This document shows positions 153-61,000 of a stretch of 64,000 nt of DNA, in pieces. The DNA comes from Ascidia mentula (Eukaryota > Chordata > Ascidiacea > Phlebobranchia > Ascidiidae): assembly GCA_947561715.1 (NCBI GenBank), contig OX387197.1:6011001-6075000 (forward strand), written 5' to 3'. The position numbers and the translations under genes are program-made. The notes beneath the pieces were generated by a model. The model was not told the DNA's origin. It worked only from the letters and a program-made list of their open reading frames with translations, and made no database searches. Every line of letters starts with the position of its first letter. The first letter of the stretch is position 1.

Positions 153-2236
153 ATGTCTACGTATTGACCGCCAGCGGAATACTTACGGGAATTGCTGCAG
201 CTTTAACTTGGCCTTCGCTCGTGATATATTGCGCTCATTTCGGAAAAAGATACGCCAGGTTTGGAAAAAGGGAATGTGACTTCTACAACGCTCGGTTCCT
301 TGGCCAGTTTTCATGCATGGTCTATATATCTATGGTAACAATGTTGTTTAGGTAGAATATTTAGGGAGTTTCAACACAATGAAAATATATTTGTTTCATT
401 AACAATTTTGCAGCTTATCAGCAACCTTGTGTGCTATTCTATACTCTATATTGGGGGGTCCACCCAAGTATCCACTTTCAACTTAACGAACCCGAACAAA
501 ACATCACAGCAACGGGATTATTCGATTTGTGGAGCCAACGACTGTCAAGACCCGAATGTGACGCAACAAAATCTGGTGCAGTATGTTCCCCCTCAAACCA
601 CACTGTTTATCACGCTCGGTGTTTTAATGGGACTGATTTTGATCGCCGCAACCATTCAGGGTTGTTTTGTAGAAAACGCGGAATTGTGTGTGGATGACAA
701 AGGTAATTAGCACATTAAAAAACAGGTTTCATCGTTGGTAAATAAGATATTATATTATGATTTGCTAAACCTTATGATTTGAGTTGGAAATGTACTTTTA
801 TCACAGATGCCACACGACGAACGCCTTACATTCAACAAGAAATTCCCTTTCATGAGCCTGTAAACCCGATAATGAATCAACGTGATGATATTGCTGTTAA
901 AAATCAAATTAAAGTAAAAGTTCTCACAAAACTCTTTTTGCAAAGTTTTAACAGGTGAGAATATTTTTTAATCGCCCGTAGTCTCAATGGCTAACAGAGA
1001 CTCACTAACGGATTAATGCAAATTATTATTAATAATCCCGAGTCGTATGTCTGTTTAAAAATTTCTACGATATATACATTTCGCCTGTGTTTGCAGGCAT
1101 CATCAGTATCACTTATTCAAATCTATTTCTATATAACGTAGGAACTTTAAACAGACAGACGACTCAGGATTATTAATAATAATTAGTTATAACATGGCTA
1201 CAATTTTTAATGCCAAACATTATTTTAAAAGGTGTTTCCAATTGCTCTGTATTCTCTAAAAAGTGCGTTTCATCAAATGTTGAAAACAAAACAACTTCTT
1301 ATAATTCCCACTTCGTGCAGTCGTTCGTTTATGTGGAAATGCAAAGAGCTCTAACCTCATGCATTGTTGGTGTTGATCAGGTAATATTCACAGCACCACA
1401 AATTTATGTAATCGAAACTACTAAAGTCATACTATCTTGACTTAAAATTCACAACTTTATCTGTTTTTTTTTTAATTTAAGGTGCCTCTGTGCATGGCCA
1501 CATTCAGTGCCAGTAACGCTTTCGTTGCATTTTATTGTGGCAAAATATCGGGTAAATATGGAAGGCAATTGCCACTATTTTTGTGTACAATGCTGGAAAT
1601 TGGAACATTCTTAACCATTTTGTTGTGGAGTGCAACTGAATCATCCAAGTGGATTGTTTACTGCCTAATCGGGTTGATGGGTATTGCAAACGGAATTCGT
1701 TCCCCCGTTAGTGCAGGTATTTTGTTTTTGTAGCTCAGTCCCATATGGCGTATCGTGTGTTCAAATTGACATTGGCAAAACAATAACTTTGTGATCTTCT
1801 GCGTTTGTGGTAAATTAGCAGAAGACGAAAAATTAAAAAAAAGGGTTTTCAATCCAGCAACACCATGCAAGCTGATAGATTTTTCGTTGTTGTTGCAAAT
1901 ACCCGTTTTAACAGAAGCTCACGCTGCTTTCTTCCCTGAGAACCAAAAGACAGCTATGGTGGTTTGGTCTTTTTGGTATCTTGCTGGTTATGCTTTTCAA
2001 TCTGGTTGGAGTACTGCAGTGTGCGTGAGGTACAAGATTTACTTTCAGCTCGTTCTGTTGGTGATCAGCATGGCAGCATTTAGTAAGTTTTCCGTATTGT
2101 GGTTATTTACACTTGTATAGATTAAATCCTTGTTTTTTTTGTTCCGCCAGGCGTGGCAGAGTTTAAACACAGTAACGATGGAAACCTGCTAAGAGAGGTG
2201 GCCTCACGAATTTTGAAATGTAAATCGAAAATGTAA
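153..2236 (+). CDS. UNC-93-like multi-pass membrane protein, 3' part of gene
   Basis: This is the C-terminal part of a UNC-93 family (MFS-fold) membrane protein; the 5' exons lie left of the window. Exons read from splice sites are 153-334, 414-702, 807-954, a small exon ending at 1380 (start 1347 by phase, or 1321), 1482-1716, 1915-2082 and 2151-2236 (stop TAA 2234-2236). Family hallmarks are LTASGILTGIAAALTWPS in the first exon, a glycosylatable loop with two Cys in the second, a helix ending IQGCF, GKISGKYGR in the fifth and the AHAAFFPENQ stretch in the sixth. UNC-93 proteins are K+ channel regulators in worms and Toll-like-receptor chaperones (UNC93B1) in vertebrates; which role applies here cannot be told. 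Phases fit at all junctions except around the fourth exon, whose 5' edge is uncertain. Intron 3 contains a palindromic element. Confidence 0.82.
1007..1195. repeat. Palindromic element in UNC-93 intron 3, with hammerhead-like core
   Basis: Arms of 36 bp at 1021-1056 and 1149-1184 are inverted copies with about two mismatches. Between them the minus strand reads CTGATGA (1106-1100), a 5-bp hairpin stem (GCCTG/CAGGC at 1083-1087 and 1094-1098), then GAAA (1082-1079). This is the conserved order of a hammerhead ribozyme core. The minus strand also carries TTTGAATAAG just upstream of the core, a string shared with the palindromes of the discoidin units. Self-cleavage is not shown. Confidence 0.6.
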
Positions 2237-4315: not shown

Positions 4316-7300
4316 TTAGTTATCTCGTACAAATAATATAAATAAATTAGTAAAGCAATAACTGGATTTGCAGAGCATGAGCGCAGATGAAAGCAATAAA
4401 TCAAAAGTACTAGAGTAGATGTTATGCTGCGTTGATTGTTCGTTGACATTGCTCCAGATTGTATTCCTACTGTTTTCTTGAATCCAGTTGTAGAATGAGG
4501 CAACATCCGTGAAAACTCCGGGAAACTTTGGATCGGCGCAGTCAACTGCGAACGAAGTGATTCCAACTTGGAACCAGGTTTCACCAGCCAAGCATAAAAG
4601 CGGCCCTCCGGAATCACCCTGCATTCATATCAAGTTAAACCTTTTATATGCAGAAACCACAAACGGCAGGTAATCGCATACCGTTCTGCAAACAATATCT
4701 TAACAACCAACCATTTTGTACTTTAGAAAATATTTGGAACAGTTTAATGATTAAACAAATATTTTTCTTGGTGATAACATTTGCAAACAACAACAATTTA
4801 AATTGTGTAAGGTGATACTAATGACCACTGTTTCGACCTATAAGGGTCTCATCAGTGCAGCTGGTGTGACTATCAGACGACTTTGCTGACCAAACGGCAA
4901 AAACAAAGACTTCCATTTTCGTTATGACTATACAATCACCGTCATCCGTTGGGCACCAAACTAGGTGTAACCTCACAGGGAAAACAAAGTGGAAACACTA
5001 TGGCCAAGCAAAGCTTAACCAATAGTGCCGTCAGGCCACGTGTCACAATAATCATATGATAAGCAAAACCATCTGCGTATAACTTACACAATTCATATTA
5101 TTGGCACCACTTTGTTTAGCAACAATTTATTTCACACCGTTTCATGATACTAATTACTTCACCTGACAAGCGTCCACGCCCCCTTTTGTAATATCACCCG
5201 CACACAGTTGAGAGTCCAGCAGTGTGACCCGATTCATGGCATAATTGCTGGCACAGATATCTTTGTTGGCGATCGGTAGTCGCACTTGGAAAAGTCTGTC
5301 CGGTGGTTCGCCGTCATAAGCTTGAACATAATATAAATATATAAGAGTTAACATCAGAATTATGTGAAAATCTGTATTTCAACTAAACGTATACGTCGAC
5401 AGCTCAAAAAATTAAACTTTAGATTAAGTTTGGAAACAATTTGGAAATGGCCAGGCTGCAATCTTTTGCATGATTTACCAAAAAAGTTTCAAGTGAGCAG
5501 AGAGCTCGAAAAGCATTGCAACTACTCCATTAAGCGCAGTGAAAAGCAAATTCAACCAATATCAATCCCGCTATTTTGTTCTGATCCCCCAAATTGGTTA
5601 ATATTAAATACTTTGTGTTTACCGAGAACTCCCCATCCAACCGCGATACAGATCATTCCATTTTCCAATTGAAGCTGACCGGGCATCGGCAAACATACCG
5701 GCTTGACAATGGAGGTGTAATTTATTGGCCTTTCAAGCGTAATAATTGCTAGGTCGTATCCTTGATCTGATTGCCTTTGAACAAAATTCAGTTACAGTGG
5801 TTTAAAATTTTAAACATGCGTATCGTCAAGTACCCGGTAAAATTGGGATGCACCGTTATTTTAGACACCGGCAGTCTTTGTTCACCATCGTTTCCGCTTG
5901 TGCTGTATCTTCCCACATACACAATGTACGAAAAACTAAAAGAATTAAGTTTACTTATTGTCAGATTGGACACATATTCCTCATGCTTGTTTACACCATG
6001 TTAAAGCACTCTAAATCAGTGTTGCACAAATAAAATTAATGACAATTGATGACTGCTTGTGTAAACGCTAGCCCAGTGCCGCAGTCACCAGCTGCACGTA
6101 TAAGACCTTACAGGTCGAAAACAAGGTGTGCATCTATCTGCATCTCTTAATAACATTATTATTTAATTTGCCCACATGTTCAACTCCTACTTACCAACGT
6201 GTAAACCAATGTTTAATGCCAGTAATTCAGTTTACATTATATTTTAGCAAATAATATTTTCTTAAGTCAATCCAATCTGCTTGGAGCAAAGGTATAATTA
6301 CGGAGTTTAGGTCGAGCTGAAAGTGATTGCCGGAATACTTACGGAAGTGGTTGGCGATCCTCAAAGCAGTGCGCTGCAGTTAAAAGGTTGTGGTGGTTTA
6401 TAACGGAGACGCCGCATAGAAACTGTTCGTCGTTATTCATTCGATACAACATCCCGACCCAAGGATAGGAATCCTTCACTGCTGCATTTCCACCAACTAT
6501 TCTAGGATCCTGTTAAGAAAATTTCTATAAAATGACTGAAAGCCAAAAATTCATTAGATTACTTGACCAAATGCCAGCACCCAAGTCCTGCCACCATTGA
6601 TTCGCTTTAGGTTACGTTAACTTATTTTGTGACATGTTTATACGTGCCTTACTTACTGTTTGCGTTGTTGGGCGGAAACTTCTGTTATTTGCTTGGTTTC
6701 ATTGAGCGTAACTTTTGTTTACTACCGTTATACCCATGCAAAAAGTATCTTGACCCATAAAGCCCCAACGCAATCATTCATCTTAAACACATTTTTTAAG
6801 CAATACGAATAATAACACTGTTGGTAAAGTGAATAGGTTTGGCAAGAAGGCAATAAAATCAATTTACTTAAACATTCATGCTAAGGAAAAGGCACCATAT
6901 CTCACCCAGGTAAACTCAATAGGAACGTTCGTTTTTCCGCACTGTTCCAAATCTGATGATACGTGAGCTACAGAAATAATATAGATTTGTGGTAAACATA
7001 AACCACAGGTTGGTTCATTAAACTCTACATTTTATTTTAGTTTTGATATTCAAGACTTAAAATTGTTCGTCTCAGATTGTGAATTTTAAACATTTAAAAC
7101 TAACAATTTAAAAAAAGGTATTTGTTTGATAGGGAATAAAATAATATTTGGTACAGAACTTTGCCAGCAAGGCAAAACAGACTACATAAATCTACCTACC
7201 GCACTCAATTTCATCGTCGCCATTTGCACAGTTTTTATTTCCATCACATTTATTTACCAAGGGAATACATTGTCCATCCCAGCAAGTATATTCGTCGCGT

Positions 7301-8698: not shown

Positions 8699-10329
8699 TG
8701 TGAACATGCGGAACGCATACGTGTCTGTCCGTTGTTTTAAAAAATGCCACAGTAGCTTCAAAATTCCGTACTTAGTGTTCTACACTGGACTGATAAAGTC
8801 ATAAGGTTCTCACATATATTTTATAATGTGCATGCACTAATCCTTCATGTTCCAAATAACTAACTTTACAATGTAGACTAACATCTCTGCTGTAGTGTCT
8901 TGAATAAAGGTTATTTAACTTAATAATCTGTTCTTCTGGCATTACCTTGAGGAAGCCTTGTTGAATAACAGGCGAAACGTCGGTGAATAAAGTTACGTTT
9001 TATATATGCCAGAAGAACAGATTATTAAGTTACCATATGCCTGGCAGCAACAGGTTATTTAGTCTTCTACTGATTAAATTAGGCGCCAAACAACTTGTTA
9101 GTTGTCTAAACCGTCACTACAGATATCACACAGTTTTGATGATACAGCGAAGAAACGGTACAACTTTCGAAAACACCCTTCGTTCAGCCGTGGTACGATT
9201 TCAGACGGCTGACGTGGGGACGCCTAATGGAATGCCCCATGTCATCACAGCCCCAGCGCATTTCGCCCCATCGACGTAATCGCTGCCTGTCAAGCGTATC
9301 ACTGAAGACAGGAGAAACACAAAGGATCCAAATTGTTGTTCACATCATAGGCTAAATTGTTTTTATGTATTTTTGTGCGTGTATTTCAAGTTATTATTGA
9401 TTAATTTATTTTTTAAATTGAATTGGTCGACACGTATATCAAATATGAACAGACTAAGCTTAAATTACAATGTTTCAAACTTGTATTTCATTGGTCAATA
9501 AATACAAGGTGTCAATTTATGTCCAAATGGGAATAAGTTCCAAATTCTCGAGTAGTTATATATTTCCAAAAAAAGTTTGCCTAAAAATATTAAAATATAT
9601 TTGTGCTTGTTTGGGGAATTTGACAGAAAAATCCCCTCATGGAAAACTTTTTAAGGAACAATGCAAAAGAATAAAAATAAACATAGGTCACGTGGTAACA
9701 AAACGTCCAATACATTTTTTAATTGTTTGTGGTATTTTCCTGTGACAACTGTAGTTTTCGAGTAGTTCTGTATGTTTAGGAATGCATTTCCACGTTCAGT
9801 ACCTTCATTCTGCCACAATCGCAAAACAATTTTTTCAAATAAAGTTCTACATGATTGAGTAGCACTTCTCACTAAGGTTCATCCGATTATTGCAAATTCA
9901 GTTCTTTTCAAAATTCAAATGAATTTTGTTTCAATAATGTCGGTTTAAATTAAATTTTAACGGCAGTTACTGAACCTATTTCACCACAAAAAAATACTTT
10001 TGCATTGATCAGCACATCGGTGCAAATATGGAGATTTTTGGGAAAGTTGGCGGTCGGAGTTAAGGTGGGGTCAATATTGTTCACTGTTGCGGAACGCTTT
10101 TGCCAAAAGTTTTAGGTTATTGCTTGTGTCACTGGATAATACTTTTACTTCCTCTTTTGACTTTGGAAGATCATTGTATTCGAAACTGTGGCCAATAGGA
10201 AAAGCCCACCAGAAAATGGTTTTATAAAACCTAAAACAAGTATATCAAAGAAAATTTGTGTGTCCTGCTTTGATGTTAGTTAGTTGTTTTGTCTATAATC
10301 TCCACAAAGTTTATGTGTGCTGTAGCAAC
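8699..10329. other. Divergent intergenic region between protease and kelch gene
   Basis: The two flanking genes point away from each other, so both promoters should lie here. Apart from the hairpin element at 8917-9031 I see only AT-rich sequence, with a GC-richer stretch at about 9150-9290 that I do not recognise. No gene is supported. Confidence 0.5.
8917..9031. repeat. Hairpin MITE-like element with 26-bp perfect inverted repeats
   Basis: Positions 8917-8942 and 9006-9031 are exact reverse complements. The plus-strand interior reads TTGAGGA (8947-8953), a hairpin with GCCT/AGGC at its base, then GAAACGTC from 8974. This resembles the hammerhead-type order CTGANGA/stem II/GAAA, but the first core base is T instead of C. 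Confidence 0.7.
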
Positions 10330-16699: not shown

Positions 16700-17976
16700 T
16701 TATGAAGACGTCAAGTATTCGTGACGCACACTAATGCCATCATTCCACTCTTGGACGACAAGACGAAGTTTCACTGCAACCACCGGTTCGTGGAAGACGT
16801 TGATTACCTTTGTGTCCCTATCGCTGTTCCCATGAAAAAGCTGCGAAAAATGTTAGGGAGTAGTACCAAAAACTGACTAAAACAAACGATTGGTTAGAAG
16901 TTTTTTGGTATTTCATGTCTTAACCAGAATGTTTCCAAAAACAAGTTTCAATGAAAGTGGGAACAAAGATCCTGTTTAACGTGAACTGATTTTTTTTGCA
17001 ATAAAGGGTTAGGAAGGTGCAAAAACCAAATTTAAACTATTTCAACAATCAACGTAAAAACCTCGTCCTTTTCGCCCGTAGAGTCCTGGACTGTTTTCAG
17101 TCATTGTCGAAAGGGCCCATGAACATTATATTATATCGCGTCACCCATTGTCTAGGTTCGAAGCCATTTCTACCTTGTGTAATAACACCGGTAACTTTGG
17201 TTGGTTTGTCCAAAGTGACTTGAATCCATTCCCCAGGCTTATCTAACAAACATTACTGATTTTTTATAATTGACAAATAGAGGAAATTGTACGTCTAAGT
17301 GCTTGTCACATATACATACTGATTTTAGCAGCCCAAGCCCCGATATGCAGACCCGGTCTGTTGGGTGTGTTCAGTCGACCATAACGGGCGTGATGTTTAG
17401 CATCCCATTGGCTTGAAGATGACAAGGCGTGGTTCGGGACTTTTCCAGACTTCAGCCCAAGTTTTTTAAATGAATCTGAGAACAAACGTTGCTTGTAACC
17501 GTAGGCTATGCAAATTTCGACTTGACTTGGCACAATTTCTGTTATGTCTATGTACGTGATTAAGGTGCATATAGTGAAGCAAAAAGCCTCTGATTTATGT
17601 CAGCAGATTTTATATTGACAAATCGATTTCGCTTGTGTAGGTTACCAAAGGCATCGTCAGTTTCTTATTCAAATAGACTGACGATGTTATGGTAACCCAT
17701 AAGCGAAATCGAAATTATTGAAAAAATATAATCTGCTGACGTAAATCATTGACTGGTTGCTTCACTATATACACCAACTAAAGTAATTTGCTGTCGCAGA
17801 TAAAAAACAATGCCTAACCGAGGGCTAGATCCCTCTACGTGTATACACGGTTTCAAACCAGTGGTTTATGGCACACTTTTGTAAAACGCTAATATCACAG
17901 TACTTATGATGTGTGATGATTATTCTGATAAATCGTGCTTGTTATTATTCTCACCAATACATGGAATTGCTGCCAT
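16700..17976 (-). pseudogene. F5/8C (discoidin) domain gene copy A, frameshifted
   Basis: Four exons are recognisable: 17976-17955 (MAAIPCI), 17547-17320, 17242-17062 and 16840-16700. Compared with intact copies, the third exon is 181 nt instead of 182 because one C is missing in the stretch encoding DNDW (around 17,097). This shifts the frame before the last third of the discoidin domain. The last exon still encodes HGNSDRDTKVINVF and ends RHEYLTSS. An AATAAA on the minus strand lies about 90 bp past the stop. The same deletion is in copy B. Confidence 0.85.
17564..17775. repeat. 212-bp palindromic element in intron 1 of copy A
   Basis: The ends are inverted copies (GGTGCATATAGTGAAGCAA and its near-complement), and the similarity runs through most of each arm. 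Each arm carries CTGACGA, a hairpin, then GAAATCG: minus strand at 17660-17654 with GAAA 17630-17627, plus strand at 17678-17684 with GAAA 17705-17708. The loop minus strand reads AGTCTATTTGAATAAG. The element ends 16 bp from the splice acceptor of exon 2. Equivalent copies lie in the other units. Confidence 0.85.
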
Positions 17977-20404: not shown

Positions 20405-21681
20405 TTATGAAGACGTCAAGTATTCGTGACGCACACTAATGCCATCATTCCACTCTTGGACGACAAGACGAAGTTTCACTGCAACCACCGGTTCGTGGAA
20501 GACGTTGATTACCTTTGTGTCCCTATCGCTGTTCCCATGAAAAAGCTGCGAAAAATGTTAGGGAGTAGTACCAAAAACTGACTAAAACAAACGATTGGTT
20601 AGAAGTTTTTTGGTATTTCATGTCTTAACCAGAATGTAACCAAAAACAAGTTTCAATGAAAGTGCGAACAAAGATCCTGTTTAACGTGAACTGATTTTTT
20701 TTGCAATAAAGGGTTAGGAAGGTGCAAAAACCAAATTTAAACTATTTCAACAATCAACGTAAAAACCTCGTCCTTTTCGCCCGTAGAGTCCTGGACTGTT
20801 TTCAGTCATTGTCGAAAGGGCCCATGAACATTATATTATATCGCGTCACCCATTGTCTAGGTTCGAAGCCATTTCTACCTTGTGTAATAACACCGGTAAC
20901 TTTGGTTGGTTTGTCCAAAGTGACTTGAATCCATTCCCCAGGCTTATCTAAAAAACATTACTGATTTTTTATAATTGACAAATAGAGGAAATTGTACGTC
21001 TAAGTGCTTGTCACATATACATACTGATTTTAGCAGCCCAAGCCCCGATATGCAGACCCGGTCTGTTGGGTGTGTTCAGTCGACCATAACGGGCGTGATG
21101 TTTAGCATCCCATTGGCTTGAAGATGACAAGGCGTGGTTCGGGACTTTTCCAGACTTCAGCCCAAGTTTTTTAAATGAATCTGAGAACAAACGTTGCTTG
21201 TAACCGTAGGCTATGCAAATTTCGACTTGACTTGGCGCAATTTCTGTTATGTCTATGTACGTGATTAAGGTGCATATAGTGAAGCAAAAAGCCTCTGATT
21301 TATGTCAGCAGATTTTATATTGAAAAATCGATTTCGCTTGTGTAGGTTACCAAAGGCATCGTCAGTTTCTTATTCAAATAGACTGACGATGTTATGGTAA
21401 CCCATAAGCGAAATCGAAATTATTGAAAAAATATAATCTGCTGACGTAAATCATTGACTGGTTGCTTCACTATATACACCAACTAAAGTAATTTGCTGTC
21501 GCAGATAAAAAACAATGCCTATCCGAGGGCTAGATCCCTCTACGTGTATACACGGTTTCAAACCAGTGGTTTATGGCACACTTTTGTAAAACGCTAATAT
21601 CACAGTACTTATGATGTGTGATGATTATTCTGATAAATCGTGCTTGTTATTATTCTTACCAATACATGGAATTGCTGCCAT
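20405..21681 (-). pseudogene. F5/8C domain gene copy B, frameshifted
   Basis: Exons 21681-21660, 21252-21025, 20947-20767 and 20545-20405 match copy A at an offset of 3,705 bp, including the same one-base deletion in the third exon. The AATAAA hexamer downstream has also mutated (TTTAATT on the plus strand where other copies read TTTATT). The copy looks dead. It shares its inactivating change with A, so it was probably duplicated after inactivation. Confidence 0.85.
21269..21480. repeat. Palindromic element in intron 1 of copy B
   Basis: Same element and same position as in copy A, with the same two hammerhead-like cores. On the minus strand GAAA precedes CTGACGA, and TTTC follows the putative cleavage position, so a 4-bp stem I is possible here. 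Confidence 0.8.
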
Positions 21682-22749
21682 AGTTGATGATGAAATGCCG
21701 ATTTGATAAAATAATATTGCCTGCTTGTCAATACAGGTTTAATCGATTTCGGTCTTAAAAAACACACGGTTTTAGTTTCTAAATAGCCACACAATATCAA
21801 AATATCTGATAAGTAACTGTGACGTGTTTCATGTCACGTTTGTGTGAGTTTGTATTTCACATATTGGATTTACCAGAGAAATAGTTAACTTCCTTTTACA
21901 GAACATAAGCCTTTTCATTTACAAAATTATTCTGTCGCAACTTATTTTGTAAAAGCACAGTTATTTACAATATTGGTTAATTCGCTACAAACCTGTTAGA
22001 GTTTTCAAAATTACGAAAGTTACATCAAAAAAGTTTAACACAGGGTTTTGACACGGAGTTACTTTTCATGACTTTACGCAAATTAACACAATTCACATTC
22101 AAAAGTGCATCTAAAACTCCATCTAATCTCAGGTCTTTCATGACGGGGTTTTATACATGTTCGCAGGAAAGGAAAAAAGTCATGAACTTTTACGTTTTAC
22201 GTGAAAACGAGTTGACATTTGGAAATCAGGAACCAGAATTGCAAGGATAGTCAGAACAGGATTAGGACGATGGGGTAATTAAGCACGCGTCAGTGCGTTT
22301 GACGTGATTTCACGCCAGCTTGCACACAATTCTAATGAACATAGAAGTATTTCCAATGTTTTCAAAAATAGTTTTGCGGGTTTGTTTACGCTAAGACCAA
22401 GCGGCCCACGCGATGAATGCGTGATGAATGCATGATCGGTGCGTGTTTAGGGAGGCGCATTGCGAGCAAGTAAAAATCAAAGGCAAGTGCTTTCTGCATC
22501 GTAACAATTTACAAAGCAATTTGTCCTAACAAAGGTTTGTGGTGTTATTTAGCAACGACGTGCATAATAAAAACATTTTTGCATTGCATTCCTTTATTGA
22601 TGTTGTTGAGGCCTTATAGCAGAAGGGACAATGCGTACACAGGAAAACTGCTGATGCGAAACAGTTAATGATGGCAAAACTATAGGTGCAGTTTCTTTGG
22701 AAAAGACAATATTTCAGGTGCATTTTAGGAAACAGGAAATCATTTTGAG

Positions 22750-22923
22750 CAGTGGTGAAATTCAAATTTTTACTCAGCCAGCTCTATCACAAAAGTCATA
22801 TTTTTAAGCGGGTTTTAAAATGCAAAAATCCATTAACAGTAAACGGTGATGCTAACCGGTTCGCTGATCTCATAAAATTCCGTGAGGCGGTACTGGAAAA
22901 CCGGTGAAACCGGCTGAATCCTG
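22750..22923. mobile_element. hAT-like non-autonomous insertion, 174 bp
   Basis: Flanks without the insertion (at about 19,020, 23,910 and 54,185) read ACTTTGAGTCAAG once. Here the 8-bp ACTTTGAG is present on both sides, the left copy having one substitution. The insert begins CAGTGGTGAAATTC and ends CTGAATCCTG. An 8-bp target duplication and CAG...CTG termini are typical of hAT elements. The terminal repeats are short, so the family call is tentative. The interior is rich in ACCGG repeats. Every 1.19-kb array monomer carries it. Confidence 0.65.
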
Positions 22924-25068
22924 ACTTTGAGTCAAGTTTAAAGTTAACGTCTTGTACATCGTACAATCAAACTAACTCCCAAAATAACATTCCCTAGCTT
23001 GGCAGACTACAACGCATCTCACGCAATCACGCACAGTTCATTGTTCATGTGAAGTGAATGACTTAAAAGCCATTACGTAACAGTAGCTTCAGGTGAACCT
23101 AGTGTATTACTAGTATAGATGTCAAATATATAGCACGAACAAAACCAATGCAAGTGCAAAACCCCATCAAATACCGTTAGCACTTTATTCCCTATGTAAC
23201 GCACGTTGACACAGCCAGGCGCAGCTAGTCAACAGATATAAAGTGCATGTGACACGGAAAAATAAAACATGTTAATAATTAAAATAAGAAATGCTCATCA
23301 CTTTAAAACATTTTTGGCGAGAAAATTAGCTTGATACGCGATTGGTTTCTGAGATTCAGCAAATCGAAATCGGATTTTATTTAAGTTTTACATGAATACG
23401 TTCCGACATTACGAAACCAGGAACCAGAATGCCAAGGATAGTCAGAACAGGAAAAGGGCTATGGGGTAATTAAGCACGCGTCATTGCGTTTGACGTAATT
23501 TCTCGTCAATTTGCAGATGATTCTAATAAACATAGAAGTATTTCCTTTTTTCCAAAAATAGTTCTGCGGGTTGGTTTACGTCACCACCAAGCGGCCCACG
23601 CGATGAATGCGTGATGAATGCATGATCGGTGGGTGTCTGGGACGGCGCATTAATTGCGAGCAAGTGAAAAATCAAAGGCAAGTGATTTCTGTATCGCAAC
23701 GATTCACAAAGCAATTTGTCCTAACTAAGGTTTGTGATGTTATTTGGCAACGACGTGTATAATAAAAACATTTTTTCATTGCATTCCTTTATTGATGTTG
23801 TTGAGGCCTTACAGCAGACGGGACAATGCGTACTCAGGAAAAATACTGATGCGAAACACTTAACGATGGCAAAACTGCAGTTTTCTGGTGCATTATAGCA
23901 AGCAGGAAATCACTTTGAGTCAAGTTCAAAGTTAACGTCTCGTACATCGTACAATCAAACTAACTCACAAAATAACATTGCCTAGCTTGGTACACTACAG
24001 CGCATCTCACGAAATCACGCACAGTTCATTGTTCATGTGAAGTGAATGACTTAAGCCATTACGTATCAGCAGCTCAGGTGAACCTATTCTATTATTAGTA
24101 TATGTCAAATATGTATTGTCAAAAATATAAAAAAAAATTGAAAATATGTGTTGTCATCTGGTGCATGTGACACGGAAAAATAAAACATGTTAACAGTTGA
24201 AATAAGAGATGGTCATAACTTTAAAACAATTTTGGCGAAAAAAAAGCGAGATTATTGTTGCGTGACGTCATTTTAGGCGCTTTGGTCGTGCGAGTGCTGG
24301 CAGCAAGCCTCATGCGTAGGAATGGAAAACATTGTAAAACTGGTTTAGTATAGTATTGCATTAAACGTGGGACAACAAGTGAACAAGAGCTACAATCGAA
24401 TTTTGATGTTAATTTGAGCTGCAGACATATGGCCACTGTTTCGAACTATTAAGTCATAGTTAGTTGCGTACTAATAAAACAGTTACTGGGACAGGGTGTT
24501 CTTGTTGTTACAGCATTTATGATCGCTAATGCGATACATAAAATTTTGAAAAGAAGACAGAGACAAACCTAGGACTGGCAGTTTGGCGATAAGCCTTTGC
24601 AAACGCCCCCACCCACGTGCTGTCTTAATGCAGCTGCAATCAATTTTTTTTCTGTGAAGTAATAGTAGTCCCCCTTCATAAGTCATCAGACCCGGAAACT
24701 GTTTTTGGCAAACAAGAGAAACTGCCACCAGGTGCTGAAAGGCGAATGACCTCTAAAGCTCAATTTTCAAGATTTAATTGTGAGATACGGCCTTAAAGGT
24801 GTGTTTATATATCGTTTATACAATAATATTATTCAATTTTGTGGGATTTGTATTCCACACAAAAGGGGTTGGTCGTGTCGTAAGTATGGTATAAATGCAG
24901 TTTGAAGCTTCCACCTGCCCAGAATACAACAACAGTTACATTGAAAGAGATGCATTTTTCCAATCAGTTTTTAATTTTCCATGTTAGTTGTATTACGAAT
25001 ATTATCGCTTATATGCAGCATGATAAATGTATACACATTGTGATATTGTTGTTTGTCACAAGTCACTT

Positions 25069-26440
25069 TTACGAAGACACTAAGTATTCGTGACGCAAAC
25101 TAATATGATCATTCCACTGTTGGACGACAAGACGAAGTTTCACTGCAACCACCGGTTCGTGGAAGATGTTGATCACCTTTGTGTCTCTATCGCTGTTCCC
25201 ATGAAAAAGCTGCGAAAAATGATAGGGAGTTGTACCCAAAACATAACAAACATTTGGTCAAAAGTTGTTAGCTACTTTATGTCTTGACCAGAATGTAACC
25301 AAAAACAAGTAACAAGGAAAGTGTGAACAAAGTTCATGCTTAACGGATTGAAAAATTGTTACCTGTTTTTTTACAATATAGGATTAGGAAGGTGAAAAAT
25401 TGTAGTTAAATAGTATAGACCCTACCCTTTGCAACAAAGTAAACCAAATTTAAACCAATTCAACAATCAACGTAAAAACCTCGTCCTTTTCGCCTGTAGA
25501 GTCCTGGACTGTTTTCCATTCCTCGTCGTGAGGGCCCATGTACATTATATTATATCGCGATACCCATTGTTTAGGTTCGGGGCCATTTCTACCTTGTGTA
25601 ATAACACCAGTCACTTTGGTTGGTTTGTCCAAAGTGACTTGAATCCATTCCCCAGGCTGTTCTAAAAATACATTACTGATGTTTAATAATTGACAAATCG
25701 AGGAAATTGTACGTCCAAGTGCTTGTCACATATACATACTGATTTTAGCAACCCAAGCCCCGATATGCAGACCCGGTCTGTATGGTGTGTTCAATCGACC
25801 ATAACGGGCGTGATGTTTAGGATCAATTTGACTTGAAGCTGACAAGGCATGGTTCGGGACTTTTCCAGACTTCAGCCCAAGTTTTTTAAATGAATCTGAG
25901 AACAAACGTTGCTTGTAACCGTAGGCTATGCAAATTTCGACTTGACTTTGCGCAATTTTAATTTCTGTTATGTTTATGTAAATGATTAAGGTGTATGTAG
26001 TGAAGCAAAAAGCCTCTTATTTATGCCAGCAGATTTATATTGAAAAATCGATTACGCTTGTGTAGGTTACCCCAAGCATCGTCAGTTTCTTATCCAAATA
26101 GACTGACGATGCTTATGGTAACCCATAAGCGAAATCGAAATTATTGAAAAAACAAAATCTACTGACGTAAATCATTGACTGGTTGCTTCACTGTATAAAC
26201 CAACTAAAATAATTCGCTGTCGCTGATAAATAAACAATGCCTAACCGAGGTCTAGATCCCTCCACAGCTATTAAGCAAGTCCTAAGTGATTAAGGTATGT
26301 ACACGGTTTCAAACTAGTGACATATGGCACACTTTCGAAAAACAATAATATCACTGTACTAGTGTATTTATGATGTGTGATGCTTATTGTGATAAATCGT
26401 GCTTGTTATTATTCTCACCAATACATGCAATTGTTGCCAT
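25069..26440 (-). CDS. F5/8C domain protein, copy C
   Basis: Exons 26440-26419 (MATIACI), 25964-25740, 25661-25480 and 25209-25069 give a frame of 189 codons. The usual acceptor of exon 2 (TAG before ACATAACAG) has mutated to TAA. An AG 11 bp further on (AACAG) restores phase, giving MATIACI-EIKIAQSQVEIC, so the gene may still work. Within the domain a Trp conserved in the other copies (SSQWDPKHH) is Ile, and the downstream AATAAA is mutated. Like its relatives it has no signal peptide. I rate it as possibly functional and less secure than D-F. Confidence 0.6.
25990..26201. repeat. Palindromic element in intron 1 of copy C
   Basis: Equivalent of the element at 17,564-17,775, with both arms and the CTGACGA/GAAA cores preserved. 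Confidence 0.8.
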
Positions 26441-26939: not shown

Positions 26940-29900
26940 TTTAAGTTTTACATAAATACGTTCCGACATTACGAAACCAGGAACCAGAATGCCAAGGATA
27001 GTCAGAACAGGAAAAGGGCTATGGGGTAATTAAGCACGCGTCATTGCGTTTGACGTAATTTCTCGTCAATTTGCAGATGATTCTAATAAACATAGAAGTA
27101 TTTCCTTTTTTCCAAAAATAGTTCTGCGGGTTGGTTTACGTCACCACCAAGCGGCCCACGCGATGAATGCGTGATGAATGCATGATCGGTGGGTGTCTGG
27201 GACGGCGCATTAATTGCGAGCAAGTGAAAAATCAAAGGCAAGTGATTTCTGTATCGCAACGATTCACAAAGCAATTTGTCCTAACTAAGGTTTGTGATGT
27301 TATTTGGCAACGACGTGTATAATAAAAACATTTTTTCATTGCATTCCTTTAATGATGTTGTTGAGGCCTTATAGCAGAAGGGACAATGCGTACACAGGAA
27401 AACTGCTGATGCGAAACAGTTAATGATGGCAAAACTATAGGTGCAGTTTCTTTGGAAAAGACAATATTTCAGGTGCATTTTAGGAAACAGGAAATCATTT
27501 TGAGCAGTGGTGAAATTCAAATTTTTACTCAGCCAGCTCTATCACAAAAGTCATATTTTTAAGCGGGTTTTAAAATGCAAAAATCCATTAACAGTAAACG
27601 GTGATGCTAACCGGTTCGCTGATCTCATAAAATTCCGTGAGGCGGTACTGGAAAACCGGTGAAACCGGCTGAATCCTGACTTTGAGTCAAGTTTAAAGTT
27701 AACGTCTTGTACATCGTACAATCAAACTAACTCCCAAAATAACATTCCCTAGCTTGGCAGACTACAACGCATCTCACGCAATCACGCACAGTTCATTGTT
27801 CATGTGAAGTGAATGACTTAAAAGCCATTACGTAACAGTAGCTTCAGGTGAACCTAGTGTATTACTAGTATAGATGTCAAATATATAGCACGAACAAAAC
27901 CAATGCAAGTGCAAAACCCCATCAAATACCGTTAGCACTTTATTCCCTATGTAACGCACGTTGACACAGCCAGGCGCAGCTAGTCAACAGATATAAAGTG
28001 CATGTGACACGGAAAAATAAAACATGTTAATAATTAAAATAAGAAATGCTCATCACTTTAAAACATTTTTGGCGAGAAAATTAGCTTGATACGCGATTGG
28101 TTTCTGAGATTCAGCAAATCGAAATCGGATTTTATTTAAGTTTTACATGAATACGTTCCGACATTACGAAACCAGGAACCAGAATGCCAAGGATAGTCAG
28201 AACAGGAAAAGGGCTATGGGGTAATTAAGCACGCGTCATTGCGTTTGACGTAATTTCTCGTCAATTTGCAGATGATTCTAATAAACATAGAAGTATTTCC
28301 TTTTTTCCAAAAATAGTTCTGCGGGTTGGTTTACGTCACCACCAAGCGGCCCACGCGATGAATGCGTGATGAATGCATGATCGGTGGGTGTCTGGGACGG
28401 CGCATTAATTGCGAGCAAGTGAAAAATCAAAGGCAAGTGATTTCTGTATCGCAACGATTCACAAAGCAATTTGTCCTAACTAAGGTTTGTGATGTTATTT
28501 GGCAACGACGTGTATAATAAAAACATTTTTTCATTGCATTCCTTTAATGATGTTGTTGAGGCCTTATAGCAGAAGGGACAATGCGTACACAGGAAAACTG
28601 CTGATGCGAAACAGTTAATGATGGCAAAACTATAGGTGCAGTTTCTTTGGAAAAGACAATATTTCAGGTGCATTTTAGGAAACAGGAAATCATTTTGAGC
28701 AGTGGTGAAATTCAAATTTTTACTCAGCCAGCTCTATCACAAAAGTCATATTTTTAAGCGGGTTTTAAAATGCAAAAATCCATTAACAGTAACCGGTGAT
28801 GCTAACCGGTTCGCTGATCTCATAAAATTCCGTGAGGCGGTACTGGAAAACCGGTGAAACCGGCTGAATCCTGACTTTGAGTCAAGTTTAAAGTTAACGT
28901 CTTGTACATCGTACAATCAAACTAACTCCCAAAATAACATTCCCTAGCTTGGCAGACTACAACGCATCTCACGCAATCACGCACAGTTCATTGTTCATGT
29001 GAAGTGAATGACTTAAAAGCCATTACGTAACAGTAGCTTCAGGTGAACCTAGTGTATTACTAGTATAGATGTCAAATATATAGCACGAACAAAACCAATG
29101 CAAGTGCAAAACCCCATCAAATACCGTTAGCACTTTATTCCCTATGTAACGCACGTTGACACAGCCAGGCGCAGCTAGTCAACAGATATAAAGTGCATGT
29201 GACACGGAAAAATAAAACATGTTAATAATTAAAATAAGAAATGCTCATCACTTTAAAACATTTTTGGCGAGAAAATTAGCTTGATACGCGATTGGTTTCT
29301 GAGATTCAGCAAATCGAAATCGGATTTTATTTAAGTTTTACATGAATACGTTCCGACATTACGAAACCAGGAACCAGAATGCCAAGGATAGTCAGAACAA
29401 GAAAAGGCCTATGGGGTAATTAAGCACGCGTCATTGCGTTTGACGTAATTTCTCGTCAATTTGCACATGATTCTAATAAACATAGAAGTATTTCTTTTTT
29501 TCAAAAATAGTTCTGCGGGTTGGTTTACGTCACCACCAAGCGGCCCACGCGATGAATGCGTGATGAATGCATGATCGGTGGGTGTCTAGGACGGCGCATT
29601 AATTGCGAGCAAGTGAAAAATCAAAGTCAAGTGATTTCTGTATCGCAACGATTCACAAAGCAATTTGTCCTAACTAAGGTTTGTGATGTTATTTGGCAAC
29701 GACGTGTATAATAAAAACATTTTTTCATTGCATTCCTTTAATGATGTTGTTGAGGCCTTATAGCAGACGGGACAATGCGTACACAGGAAAACTGCTGATG
29801 CGAAACAGTTAATGATGGCAAAACTATAGGTGCAGTTTCTTTGGAAAAGACAATATTTCAGGTGCATTTTAGGAAACAGGAAATCATTTTGAGCAGTGGT

Positions 29901-32900
29901 GAAATTCAAATTTTTTCTCAGCCGGCTCTATCACAAAAGTCATATTTTTAAGCGGGTTTTAAGATGCAAAAATCCATTAACAGTAAACGGTGATGCTAAC
30001 CGGTTCGCTGATCTCATAAAATTCCGTGAGGCGGTACTGGAAAACCGGTGAAACCGGCTGAATCCTGACTTTGAGTCAAGTTTAAAGTTAACGTCTTGTA
30101 CATTGTACAATCAAACTAACTCCCAAAATAACATTCCCTAGCTTGGCAGACTACAACGCATCTCACGCAATCACGCACAGTTCATTGTTCATGTGAAGTG
30201 AATGACTTAAAAGCCATTACGTAACAGTAGCTTCAGGTGAACCTAGTGTATTACTAGTATAGATGTCAAATATATAGCACGAACAAAACCAATGCAAGTG
30301 CAAAACCCCATCAAATACCGTTAGCACTTTATTCCCTATGTAACGCATGTTGACACAGCCAGGCGCAGCTAGTCAACAGATATAAAGTGCATGTGACACG
30401 GAAAAATAAAACATGTTAATAATTAAAATAAGAAATGCTCATCACTCTAAAACATTTTTGGCGAGAAAATTAGCTTGATACGCGATTGGTTTCTGAGATT
30501 CAGCAAATCGAAATCGGATTTTATTTAAGTTTTACATGAATACGTTCCGACATTACGAAACCAGGAACCAGAATGCCAAGGATAGTCAGAACAGGAAAAG
30601 GGCTATGGGGTAATTAAGCACGCGTCATTGCGTTTGACGTAATTTCTCGTCAATTTGCAGATGATTCTAATAAACATAGAAGTATTTCTTTTTTTCAAAA
30701 ATAGTTCTGCGGGTTGGTTTACGTCACCACCAAGCGGCCCACGCGATGAATGCGTGATGAATGCATGATCGGTGGGTGTCTTGGACGGCGCATTAATTGC
30801 GAGCAAGTGAAAAATCAAAGGCAAGTGATTTCTGTATCGCAACGATTCACAAAGCAACTTGTCCTAACTAAGGTTTGTGATGTTATTTGGCAACGACGTG
30901 TATAATAAAAACATTTTTTCATTGCATTCCTTTAATGATGTTGTTGAGGCCTTATAGCAGACGGGACAATGCGTACACAGGAAAACTGCTGATGCGAAAC
31001 AGTTAATGATGGCAAAAATATAGGTGCAGTTTCTTTGGAAAATACAATATTTCAGGTGCATTTTAGGAAACAGGAAATCATTTTGAGCAGTGGTGAAATT
31101 CAATTTTTTTCTCAGCCGGCTCTATCACAAAAGTCATATTTTTAAGCGGATTTTAAGATGCAAAAATCCATTAACAGTAAACGGTGATGCTAACCGGTTC
31201 GCTGATCTCATAAAATTCCGTGAGGCGGTACTGGAAAACCGGTGAAACCGGCTGAATCCTGACTTTGAGTCAAGTTTAAAGTTAACGTCTTGTACATCGT
31301 ACAATCAAACTAACTCCCAAAATAACATTCCCTAGCTTGGCAGACTACAGCGCATCTCACGCAATCACGCACAGTTCATTGTTCATGTGAAGTGAATGAC
31401 TTAAAAGCCATTACGTAACAGTAGCTTCAGGTGAACCTAGTGTATTACTAGTATAGATGTCAAATATATAGCACGAACAAAACCAATGCAAGTGCAAAAC
31501 CCCATCAAATACCGTTAGCACTTTATTCCCTATGTAACGCACGTTGACACAGCCAGGCGCAGCTAGTCAACAGACATAAAGTGCATGTGACACGGAAAAA
31601 TAAAACATGTTAATAATTAAAATAAGAAATGCTCATCACTTTAAAACATTTTTGGCGAGAAAATTAGCTTGATACGCGATTGGTTTCTGAGATTCAGCAA
31701 ATCGAAATCGGATTTTATTTAAGTTTTACATGAATACGTTCCGACATTACGAAACCAGGAACCAGAATGCCAAGGATAGTCAGAACAGGAAAAGGGCTAT
31801 GGGGTAATTAAGCACGCGTCATTGCGTTTGACGTAATTTCTCGTCAATTTGCAGATGATTCTAATAAACATAGAAGTATTTCTTTTTTTCAAAAATAGTT
31901 CTGCGGGTTGGTTTACGTCACCACCAAGCGGCCCACGCGATGAATGCGTGATGAATGCATGATCGGTGGGTGTCTTGGACGGCGCATTAATTGCGAGCAA
32001 GTGAAAAATCAAAGGCAAGTGATTTCTGTATCGCAACGATTCACAAAGCAACTTGTCCTAACTAAGGTTTGTGATGTTATTTGGCAACGACGTGTATAAT
32101 AAAAACATTTTTTTATTGCATTCCTTTAATGATGTTGTTGAGGCCTTATAGCAGACGGGACAATGCGTACACAGGAAAACTGCTGATGCGAAACAGTTAA
32201 TGATGGCTAAACTAAGGGTGCAGTTTTCTGGGAAAAGACAATATTTCAGGTGCATTTTAGGAAACAGGAAATCACTTTGTTCAGTGGTGAAATTCAAATT
32301 TTTCTCAGCCGGCTCTATCACAAAAGTCATATTTTTAAGCGGGTTCTAAGATGCAAAAATCCATTAACAGTAAACGGTGATGCTAACCGGTTCGCTGATC
32401 TCATAAAATTCCGTGAGGCGGTACTGGAAAATCGGTGAAACCGGCTGAATCCTGACTTTGAATCAAGTTTAAAGTTAACGTCTTGTACATCGTACAATCA
32501 AACTAACTCCCAAAATAACATCCCCTAGCTTGGCAGACTACAACGCATCTCACGCAATCACGCACAGTTCATTGTTCATGTGAAGTGAATGACTTAAAAG
32601 CCATTACGTAACAGTAGCTTCAGGTGAACCTAGTGTATTACTAGTATAGATGTCAAATATATAGCACGAACAAAACCAATGCAAGTGCAAAACCCCATCA
32701 AATACCGTTAGCACTTTATTCCCTATGTAACGCATGTTGACACAGCCAGGCGCAGCTAGTCAACAGATATAAAGTGCATGTGACACGGAAAAATAAAACA
32801 TGTTAATAATTAAAATAAGAAATGCTCATCACTCTAAAACATTTTTGGCGAGAAAATTAGCTTGATACGCGATTGGTTTCTGAGATTCAGCAAATCGAAA

Positions 32901-58019: not shown

Positions 58020-61000
58020 ACAGCAGCTCAGGTGTACCTAGTCTATAACTAGTATATGTCAAATATGTATTGTCAAATATATCTCACGAACAAAACCAAT
58101 GCATGTACAAAACCTCATCAAATACCGTTATAACTTTATTCCCTATGTAACGCACGATGATACAGCCAGGCGCAGCTAGGCAACAGATATAAGGTGCATG
58201 TGACACGGAAAAGTAAAACATGTTAGTTTTAAACACAGTTTAAATAAGAGATGGTCATAACTTTAAAACAATTTTGGCGAAAAAAGTAGCTTGATACGGC
58301 GACTGGTTTCTGAGATACAGCTGATCAAAGTCGCAATTTTACCGCTGCGAACGAAATCGTGCGAAAGCGAGATTATTGTTGCGTGATGTCATTTTAGGCG
58401 CTTTGGTCGTGCGAGTGCTGGCAGCAAGCCTCATGCGTAGGAATGGAAAACATTGTAAAACTGGTTTAGTATAGTATTGCATTAAACGTGGGACAACAAG
58501 TGAACAAGAGCTACAATCGAATTTTGATGTTAATTTGAGCTGCAGACATATGGCCGCTGTTTCGACATATTAAGTCTTAGTTAGTTGCGTAGTAATAAAA
58601 GAGTTACTGGGACAGGGTGTTCTTGTTGTTACAGCATTTATGATCGCTAACGTGATACATAAAATTTTGAAATCAAGACAGAGACAAACCTAGGACTGGC
58701 AGTTTGACGGTAAGCCTTTGCAAACGACCTCCCCTCCCCCCCACGTGCTGTCTTTCTGCAACTGCAACCATTTTTTTTTCTGTTAAGCAATAGTAGTCCC
58801 CCTTCGTGAGTCATTAGACCCGGAAACTATTTTTGGCAAACAAGAGAAACTGTTACCAGGTGCAGAAAGGCGAATGACCTCTAAAGCTCAATTTTCAAGA
58901 TTTAATTGTGAGATACGGCCTTAAATGTGTGTTTATATATCGTTTATACAATAATATTATTCAATTTTGTGGGATTTGTATTCCACACAAAAGGGGTTGG
59001 TCGTGTCGTAAGTATGGTATAAATGCAGTTTAAAGCTTCCACCTGCCCAGAATACAACAACAGTTACATTGAAAGAGATGCATTTTTCCAATCAGTTTTT
59101 ATTTTTCATTGTTAGTTCTGTTACAAATAATATCGCTTATATGCAGCATGTCAATTGTACATATTGTGATATTGTTGTTTGTCACAAGTCACAAGTAGAC
59201 ATTAAGTATTCGTGACGCAAACTAATATGACCTTTCCACTCTTGGGCGACAAGACGAAGTTTTACTGCAACCACCGGTTCGTGGAAGACGTTGATCACCT
59301 TTGTGTCCCTATCGCTGTTCCCATGAAAAAGCTGCGAAAAATGTTAGGAAGTAGTATTAAAAACATACTAAAACAAATAAATGGTTAGAAGTTTTTTGAT
59401 ACTTGTGTCTTGACCAGAATGTATCCAAAAACAGGTTTCAATGAAAGTGTGAACAAAAAACCTGCTTAACGTGGATTGAAAAATTATTAACTGTTTTTCA
59501 CAATAAAGGGTTAGGAAGGTGCGAAATTGTAGTTAAATAATATAGACCCTCCCCAATGTAACAAAGTAAACCAAATTTAAACCAATTCAACAATCAACGT
59601 AAAAACCTCGTCCTTTTCGCCTGTAGAGTCCTGGACTGTTTTCCATTCATTGTCAAAAGGACCCATGTACATTATATTATATCGCGTTACCCATTGTCCA
59701 GGGTCGAGGCCATTTCTACCTTGTGTAATAACACCGGTAACTTTGGTTGGTTTTACCAAAGTGACTTGAATCCATTCCCCAGGCTCATCTAAAAAACACT
59801 ACCGATGTTTAATATTTGACAAATCGGGGAAATTGTACGTCTAACTTCTTGTCACATATACATACTGGTTTTAGCAGCCCAAGCCCCGATATGCAGACCC
59901 GGTCTGTTGGGTGTGTTCAGTCGACCATAACGGGCGTGATGTTTAGCATCCCATTGGCTTGAAGATGACAAGGCGTGGTTCGGGACTTTTCCAGACTTCA
60001 GCCCAAGTTTTTTAAATGAATCTGAGAACAAACGTTGCTTGTAACCGTAGGCTATGTAAATTTCGACTTGGCTTGGCGCAATTTCTGTTATGTCTGTGTA
60101 CATGATTAAGGTGCATATAGTGAAGCAAAAAGCCTCTGATGTCAGCAGATTTTATATTGAAAAATCGATCTGATGACGTAAATCATTGACTGGTTGCTTC
60201 ACTGTATACACCAACTAAAGTAATTTGCTGTCGCAGATAAATAAACAATGCCTAACCGAGGGCCAGATCCCTCTACAGCTATAAAGAAAGTCCTAAGTGA
60301 TTAAGGTATGTACATACACCGTTTCAAACCAGTGGCTTATGGCACACTTTCGTAAAACAATAATATCACTGTACTTATGATGTCGATGATTATTCTGATC
60401 AATCGTGCTTGCTATTATTCTCACCAATACATGGAATTGTTGCCATAGTTGACGATAACGTGTCGATGTGATGATATAAAATTGCCTGCTTGTCAATACA
60501 GGTTTAATCGATTTCGGTCTTAAAAAACACACGGTTTTAGTTTCTAAATAGCCACACAATATCAAAATATCTGATAAGTAACTAGAACGTGTTTCATGTC
60601 ACGTTTATGTGAGTTCATATTTCACAAACTTTTTGGATTTACCACACAAATAGCTAACTTCCTTTCACAGAACATAAGCCTTTACATTTACAAATTTATT
60701 CTGCCGCAACTTATTTTGTAAAAGCACAGTTATTTATAATATTGGTTCATTCGATACAAACATGTTAGAGCGTTTAAAATTCCGAAAGTTACTTCAACAA
60801 AAGTTTAACACAGTGTTTTAACATGGAGTCACTTTTTATGACTTTACAAAAATTAACACAAATTCAGATTCAAAAGTGCATCTAAAACTCCATCTAATCT
60901 CAGCTCTAACATTACGGGGTTTTATACATGTTCGCAGGAAACATTAATACGTTCCGACATTACGAAACCAGGAACCAGAATGCCAAAGATAGTCAGAGCA

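Follow-up and report, generated by a model that had tools for sequence, protein, structure and literature searches.

Palindromes in a gene family of Ascidia mentula as probable head-to-head insertions of a Penelope-like element with a spliced leader and a minimal hammerhead motif

A short palindrome recurs in the putative first introns of a tandem gene family of the ascidian Ascidia mentula, and its two arms, one on each strand, carry sequences resembling the core of hammerhead ribozymes. Is this a ribozyme element built on both strands, or does the palindrome have another origin? We analysed the window (the whole stretch of 64,000 nucleotides, G000:C1:6011001-6075000) and searched the genome (195.8 Mb). 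In the reading that we prefer, to which we assign a probability of about three in four, the palindrome is the scar of one jump of a Penelope-like element (PLE), in which two copies headed by a spliced leader (SL) were inserted head to head; as part of this reading, the window locus would represent one old insertion event, multiplied along with its host gene.

Palindromes and their two cores in a duplicated gene family

Palindromes A–E and a gutted sixth copy, F, are found at equivalent places in duplicated gene units, some exons of which contain F5/8 type C (discoidin) domains. The reading frame adjoining copy A has no Pfam match. The palindrome is common to A–F because the host gene was duplicated. 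The features of the window, in window positions, are as follows.

17564..17838: insertion of copy A, consisting of the left arm (minus sense, 3'-truncated), an SL remnant at the joint and the right arm (plus sense) with the full 3' end
17613..17668, minus strand: candidate minimal PLE-type hammerhead of copy A, 42.7 bits with class model R1, one stem I mismatch
17664..17679, minus strand: SL remnant of copy A, AGTCTATTTGAATAAG, matching ATTCTATTTGAATAAG at 15/16 positions
17678..17711, plus strand: decayed plus core of copy A, U16.1 lost, stem I of at most two pairs
17776..17838, plus strand: 3' 'tail' of copy A, on the right arm only (alignment done on copy B)
17553..17558: possible left target duplication TACGTG, weak, from flank comparison
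17836..17841: possible right target duplication TACGTG, weak, from flank comparison
21269..21480: palindrome of copy B, candidate hammerhead at 21318-21373, minus strand, 49.0 bits
25990..26196: palindrome of copy C, minus motif with GTAA at 26038-26093, 40.2 bits, plus motif 21.4 bits
52746..52957: palindrome of copy D, candidate hammerhead at 52795-52850, minus strand, 49.0 bits
56417..56627: palindrome of copy E, candidate hammerhead at 56466-56521, minus strand, 49.0 bits, plus core mutated
60110..60212: copy F, centre including both cores deleted
1021..1184: second window palindrome with different arms (39 nt, 95%), SL-like stretch (13/16) in its centre
1065-1114, minus strand: well-formed candidate minimal hammerhead of the second palindrome, 53.1 bits, its sequence included in the model's alignment

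The pattern CTGANGA-N6-30-GAAATCG has eight matches in the window against 0.04 expected, so the predicted occurrence of CTGACGA and GAAATCG on both strands is not a matter of chance, but the pair is absent from some copies. Both cores had been ascribed to every palindrome; they are present in A, B and D only, since the minus core of C reads GTAA, the plus core of E reads ATGACAA and the centre of F is lost. Nor does the element end at 17775, as first proposed: the right limit of copy A lies at about 17835-17838, and the homology of many scattered copies ends at or before 17838. Minus arms keep CUGACGA, U16.1 and H17 in five of five copies and the GAAA box in four, copy C being the exception. 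The GAAA before and TTTC after the minus core, correctly recognized in B–E, give four stem I pairs there and three of four in A, where one base is broken. Likewise, the proposed AT-CG-AT stem III fits the minus strand, which reads ATCGAT, but not the plus strand, where the hexamer is ATCGAA. Plus arms have the CUGANGA core in four of five copies (E has ATGACAA instead of CTGACGA), U16.1 in none, and a stem I that never exceeds two pairs. Class-model scores of the five minus arms are 40.2–49.0 bits, compared with 21.4 bits for the plus arm of C and 16.3 bits for that of E, while the plus arms of A, B and D are unlisted at E<=10. Because the 32 sequences used to build the model include the copy B minus arm (49.0 bits) and the second palindrome, these two scores do not count as independent; the minus arms of D and E score the same as B.

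The two cores are not independent of each other, each being approximately the reverse complement of the opposite arm. Over its 212 nt, either strand of the palindrome is predicted to fold into one hairpin (-109.4 kcal/mol with z about -18 for one strand, -107.4 kcal/mol with z about -17 for the other) in which all core bases are paired (P about 0.999). Minimum-energy folds of single cores, as monomers or dimers, did not give the full hammerhead shape, and the case therefore rests on covariation, not on energies. A search of 17400-17900 against Rfam at E<=10 returned no hammerhead family. Matches of the palindrome to Rfam plant and other miRNA families were all under the curated scores and were taken as artefacts of the long hairpin.

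Comparison of the copies reveals no steadily better conservation of the palindrome relative to its surroundings. Copies A and C differ at 15/211 palindrome sites (7.1%) and by 8.8–8.9% in the two larger flanks, A and D at 5/212 sites (2.4%) with flanks at 7.6–7.9%, and A and E at 11/210 sites (5.2%) with flanks at 0.8% and 0.0%. Among A–E, 3/22 core columns are variable versus 24/190 elsewhere. These figures bear on the idea of a ribozyme element selected on both strands and kept as such through the gene-family expansion. The presence of cores on both strands in A, B and D would agree with it, but the plus core falls outside the motif class, both cores are buried in the predicted hairpin, core columns are about as variable as others, and cores drift in scattered copies (see below); we consider such selection highly improbable. 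A head-to-head PLE insertion, carried along when the gene was duplicated, accounts better for the layout. The arms of the window palindrome differ from each other by ~25%, implying that the palindrome predates the gene duplications or had two unlike templates.

The motif class in the genome and its neighbours

Genome-wide, CTGANGA-N4-30-GAAATCG has 492 matches versus 54 for the reversed pattern, and the tighter CTGANGATG-N4-28-GCGAAATCGATTT has 237 versus 0. Chance matching as the source of the cores is ruled out by the window and genome counts when set against expectation and controls. The class has a layout that is constant across families: stem I, CUGANGA, an extra U, stem II, GAAA, six nucleotides completing AUnnAU and H17, and stem I again. 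Examples of stem I include GGAGAAA/UUUCUCU (L041), AGACA/UGUCU (L044), GAAUA/UAUUC (L067) and GAUA/UAUC (second window palindrome). In a 40-sequence alignment that includes rows with lost parts, standard pairs make up 85.3% of pair cells versus 78.3% after shuffling, and over the whole structure 36 cells are changed on both sides versus 15.8 (sd 2.8, 0/500 shuffles), on statistics that ignore relatedness among the 40 sequences. Sliding the pairing partners yields 5 to 18 double-change cells as against 36 in the true register. Two of five structure measures did not exceed the shuffles, namely, pairs changed on both sides (5 versus 4.5, 268/500) and further pair types (16 versus 13.9, 56/500). 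In stem I, four of five pairs show change on both sides and 74.5% of cells are paired; a first test of this stem, with 21 distinct pairs, was weaker (15/5000 shuffles as high). Covariation of stem II, suggested for testing alongside that of stem I, is seen at its third pair, changed on both sides in 10/40 sequences, and the first two pairs are invariant but largely fixed by the search patterns. The A15.1-U16.1 pair is present in 37/40 sequences.

Alignment A1 was made without L128, L140 and L141 (hexamer lost), both L101 rows, L014, L024 and L017-minus; these rows were added in alignment A2, which left the main covariation result unchanged. Neither alignment contains the plus arms of the window, its remaining copies, L052, near-duplicates or rows of a second motif class. 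Three elements of L128-L147, ATTTGAATAAG, GATGC and GCGAAAT, were prescribed by the search pattern, and their constancy is therefore no evidence; the pattern placed no constraint on CTGA, stem I or the hexamer after GAAAT. Rfam at E<=1 found no family in L041, L044, L052 and L095.

Scattered copies give a different view of the core. Twenty were fetched with a query lying outside the core (40 of 146 candidates scored), and 17 of them are full-length. In these 17, core columns match the majority at 0.853 versus 0.91 in 38 other columns outside the query, the agreement inside the query being 0.945. The ten tested core columns are intact in 4/17 copies (one with an extra base, by eye); intact cores were counted column by column, as a later CTGACGAA could otherwise match falsely. 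The constraint on the core envisaged in the original prediction is thus not seen among scattered copies. Such drift is the behaviour of dead copies and is no argument against use of the motif by active elements, the motif being kept across families that are otherwise unlike.

GIY-YIG endonuclease sequences have at least 121 matches in the genome (150 of 382 candidates scored). The PLE at L095/L096, whose L095 GIY-YIG domain exceeds the Pfam cut-off, has GIY-YIG followed by TTTTCAG and the class motif. With the L095 domain as tblastn query, a GIY-YIG relative was found upstream of the motif and in the same direction at six loci, at distances of ~280-343 nt (L010, L015, L016, L017, L102) and ~370 nt (L074). 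The motif is preceded by TTGCAG in five of the six and by CGGCAG in L010. In L102, which carries the window's own subfamily, the GIY-YIG stretch had no Pfam match. At L023, exceptionally, GIY-YIG and motif point in opposite directions. RVT_1 was detected in loci other than those of the exact-module lineage, below the cut-off in L094 and over it in L098. Collectively, these contexts support a link of the module to GIY-YIG retroelements. Furthermore, the genome-wide class, the covarying stem I, the conserved AUnnAU and the GIY-YIG link support the original hammerhead reading of the minus core, which appears to be a small hammerhead of the PLE kind, and a putatively self-cleaving one.

Two other groups of sequences were observed. 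A second motif class, CTGATGAAGG..CCGAAACG or similar, is found at L068, L077, L085, L088, L092 and L094, in several cases near GIY-YIG sequences, and also has one extra base before stem II. The window itself contains, at 4825-4880 on the minus strand, CTGATGAGACC..GGTCGAAAC, which looks like a canonical hammerhead core, lacks the extra base and scores 23.3 bits with Rfam RF00008 (cut-off 48.5).

Spliced leaders, facing pairs and their joints

The Ciona SL, ATTCTATTTGAATAAG (given in the available text of PMC7986045), occurs exactly at 2157 places in the genome, including a regular ~720-bp tandem array, and its reversed pattern at none. A long SL array with spacing mostly of 719-720 bp, possibly of SL RNA genes, lies at G000:C1:15239666-15297871. 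The 3' part of the SL, ATTTGAATAAG, is followed by the motif within 24 nt at 190 places, and TTGCAG by the motif within 6 nt at 189 (reversed controls 0 in both cases); these counts are of places, not of independent events. Judged by eye, ten of the 17 full-length copies start after CAG, and L125 starts at the same point after TTTGCTG. L109 and L117 start after the SL, L114, L120 and L121 follow another shared stretch ending GTTTAAGCTTTG(A/G)G, and L127 is preceded by none of these. The remaining fetched copies are truncated (L110, L124) or lie inside a head-to-head pair (L108). As in SL retrocopies, the SL occupies the 5' end where source copies have a splice acceptor. Most simply, these copies would be DNA made from an RNA that bears a 3' splice site and in many cases received the SL there by trans-splicing. 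At L018, L021, L114, L120 and L121 the module is joined at the splice point to a shared stretch ..GTTTAAGCTTTGAG, perhaps another captured exon, with several copies on C1 near 26.8-27.0 Mb. L101 (C69:20247700-20251400) consists of 3.4-kb tandem units, each headed by ATTTGAATAAG and the hammerhead motif, with a longest open frame of 128 aa.

Among the 121 GIY-YIG matches listed, neighbours within 6 kb are head to head in 17 cases, tandem in 6 and tail to tail in none. Head-to-head joints of two SLs occur at 5 places and the tail-facing arrangement at 0. One-SL joints followed by the motif occur at seven places, four of them window-locus copies and three elsewhere. L025 and C70:19380369 have an identical joint, letter for letter, and at least one of them is therefore not an independent event. 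Of the 100 SL-motif places listed (190 in all), 29, picked for near neighbours plus a few others, include 5 head-to-head pairs within 300 bp. Four pairs of one family, L148-L151, have 13–15 bp common to both flanks in 4/4 cases; random pairs of window 27-mers share at least 13 in 10/4000 and at least 6 in 527/4000. The joints are not alike: in L149 a single G separates two complete SLs, L150 has one complete SL and 13/16 bases of the other, and L148 and L151 contain filler bases, L148 lying outside the SL-SL pattern with one SL that has two changes. Counted from the AUG of the motif, the long arm reaches 162–163 nt, and the short arm terminates, to within about 3 nt, at a single internal position at 87 nt; L148 and L150 have the short arm at the left, L149 and L151 at the right. 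Corresponding ends are at 85 and about 143 nt in L025 and at 92 and 152–155 nt in the window. Since joints and sides differ and internal ends are constant, the events look separate and the arms appear to begin at two fixed start sites. A tail of about 58–76 bp is present on one arm, as aligned in window copy B, L025, L149 and L150 and as judged by coordinates in L148 and L151. In window copy A, the left arm reaches only to 17564, which corresponds to the start of the right arm's tail (17776-17838).

At the window locus the SL remnant (15/16) belongs to the left arm, the only one to carry an SL, and the right arm begins ACTGACG. The TACGTG repeat of the flanks is, at 6 bp, too short to weigh much, and the flanks of the second window palindrome share only a 4-bp match. 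The one-arm SL, the divergence of the arms and the 6-bp repeat weigh against the preferred reading at this locus. A single cDNA of sense SL-headed RNA might instead have folded back at its SL end and copied itself into the second arm. The SL is partly self-complementary, and joints with one SL and a fragment or nothing of the other are found at C52:22191938, C67:13614309, C73:11515433 and the window locus. Folding back is at odds with the complete and nearly complete second SLs of L149 and L150, with the common internal end of the short arms of L148-L151, which a second start site would produce, and with window arms that are ~25% different. As a general account it is unlikely; for single-SL joints, including that of the window, it may hold.

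The length and asymmetry of the insertion also bear on whether it is an ordinary fold-back DNA transposon (MITE) with an incidental resemblance to hammerheads. The window insertion is short and palindromic, and no long reading frame or GIY-YIG endonuclease was found in it. A MITE is nevertheless hardly credible, given the asymmetric ends, with a tail at the right end only and matching terminal inverted repeats absent, the SL at the joint, the GIY-YIG linkage and the covarying stem I.

Only sense RNA receives an SL, and it does so at the 5' end; an SL found at a joint therefore tells which RNA served as template and how far copying went. For rotifer PLEs, the sections of PMC3846280 available to us describe inverted repeats with a tail and duplications of 8–10 bp, in which head-to-head pairs are the commonest and palindromes occur at the joint; self-priming would there require an antisense template for head-to-head pairs. 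Self-priming on antisense RNA would agree with that frequency and with those palindromes, but both arms carry the SL in sense orientation, which points to sense RNA instead. The SL might nonetheless be present in antisense RNA transcribed from an SL-headed DNA copy; we regard self-priming on antisense RNA as very unlikely. For sense RNA copied from both strands, PMC11167929 offers a parallel: in the portions accessible, both strands of the target undergo extension by a PLE enzyme, which begins at two neighbouring sites within the RNA, the most frequent start being a stem loop 111–118 bp into the ORF, and the genomic tail of 30–40 bp lies between the two start sites.

A proposed route and its relation to known systems

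From features present in the DNA itself (the motif class, its covariation, the SL and acceptor contexts, the GIY-YIG linkage, the head-to-head excess, and the tails and flanking repeats of relatives), we infer trans-splicing of the SL to the element's RNA, priming on two strands, joining of cDNAs and, possibly, ribozyme cleavage. The PLE repeat would hold a 3' splice acceptor with the minimal hammerhead directly after it. Trans-splicing of the SL at that acceptor would give an RNA that reads SL, hammerhead and the rest, with the 5' end SL-AAACUGANGAUGCC. The PLE enzyme would nick both target strands, and each nick would prime reverse transcription of the sense RNA from either of two internal sites, about 85–92 or 143–163 nt past the motif's AUG. 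Both cDNAs would reach, or nearly reach, the SL end and be joined there, and the outcome would be a short head-to-head pair joined at the SL, flanked by a target duplication and bearing a 'tail' on only one of its arms. A bolder version, for which we see slightly less than even odds, is that PLEs of this SL-using chordate place a trans-splice acceptor just before the hammerhead and its AUG, so that splicing would produce a translatable SL-capped mRNA severed from the upstream coding region. Only unspliced tandem RNA would then move the gene, SL-capped RNA would give rise to short facing pairs, and head-to-head pairs would represent sense RNA copied from both target strands, a step left open in PMC3846280. 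The candidate AUG in the motif of the window left arm opens a frame that closes after 14 codons (by eye).

Several parts of this scheme are already known separately, namely, small PLE hammerheads, facing PLE repeats with tails, and SL-tagged retrocopies. Minimal hammerhead variants of PLEs have reportedly been described by Cervera & de la Pena 2014 and by Lunse et al. 2017. Accessible parts of PMC7761336 and PMC7229834 describe minimal PLE hammerheads with little or no helix III and possible action as dimers. The motif here resembles them in its location in a PLE repeat, its core, its near-absent stem III and the possibility of dimer action, but it differs in lying directly downstream of an acceptor, with the SL joining the 5' strand of stem I, and in being placed within facing SL-joined pairs. 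PLE inverted pseudo-LTR insertions, to the extent covered by the available text of PMC3846280 and PMC11167929, likewise have head-to-head repeats, one tail, a GIY-YIG enzyme and a target duplication, for which the flanking repeats are candidates here. In the present case, however, an SL shows which sense of RNA was copied and where its 5' end lay, and the tail exceeds the 30–40 bp of PMC11167929. A term search of PMC3846280 found neither 'spliced leader' nor 'trans-splic'. Dinoflagellate SL-tagged retrocopies (PMC6050394 and PMC12014239, in part) share the 5' SL relic that indicates origin from a mature RNA, but the present case involves an animal host, the RNA of a retroelement rather than host mRNA, and head-to-head pairing.

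Twin priming of LINE-1 uses two primers and yields an inverted 5' part and a target duplication. Two primers, an inverted part and a target duplication would be common to both processes; what differs here is that nearly the whole of each arm overlaps the other, with the meeting point at the 5' end of the RNA. The accessible text of PMC8008620 mentions PLEs and, separately, Oikopleura SL genes located with 5S rRNA in inverted repeats. An SL-headed PLE, or an SL beside a hammerhead in one element, is not described in the accessible portions of PMC7986045, PMC11167929, PMC7229834, PMC7761336, PMC6466107, PMC3846280, PMC5240408, PMC8008620 and PMC2770079. The combination of an SL on hammerhead stem I at the joint of facing PLE copies was not found in the open-licence literature, as far as its texts were accessible, which does not mean that it has never been published. 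Little is understood of PLE mobilization, and the large number of head-to-head PLE copies has lacked an explanation. An SL at the joint makes the question of the template testable from genomes. Moreover, a hammerhead motif, trans-splicing and retrotransposition meet here at one spot, where the splice site abuts stem I.

Two further features of the window are repeats of other kinds. Between the duplicated genes, positions 26940-45756 comprise a tandem array of about 16 copies of a ~1194-bp unit that are ~98% alike, with a further partial copy of the unit near 22189-23919, and positions 8916-9032 contain a perfect 27-bp inverted repeat whose halves are 63 nt apart.
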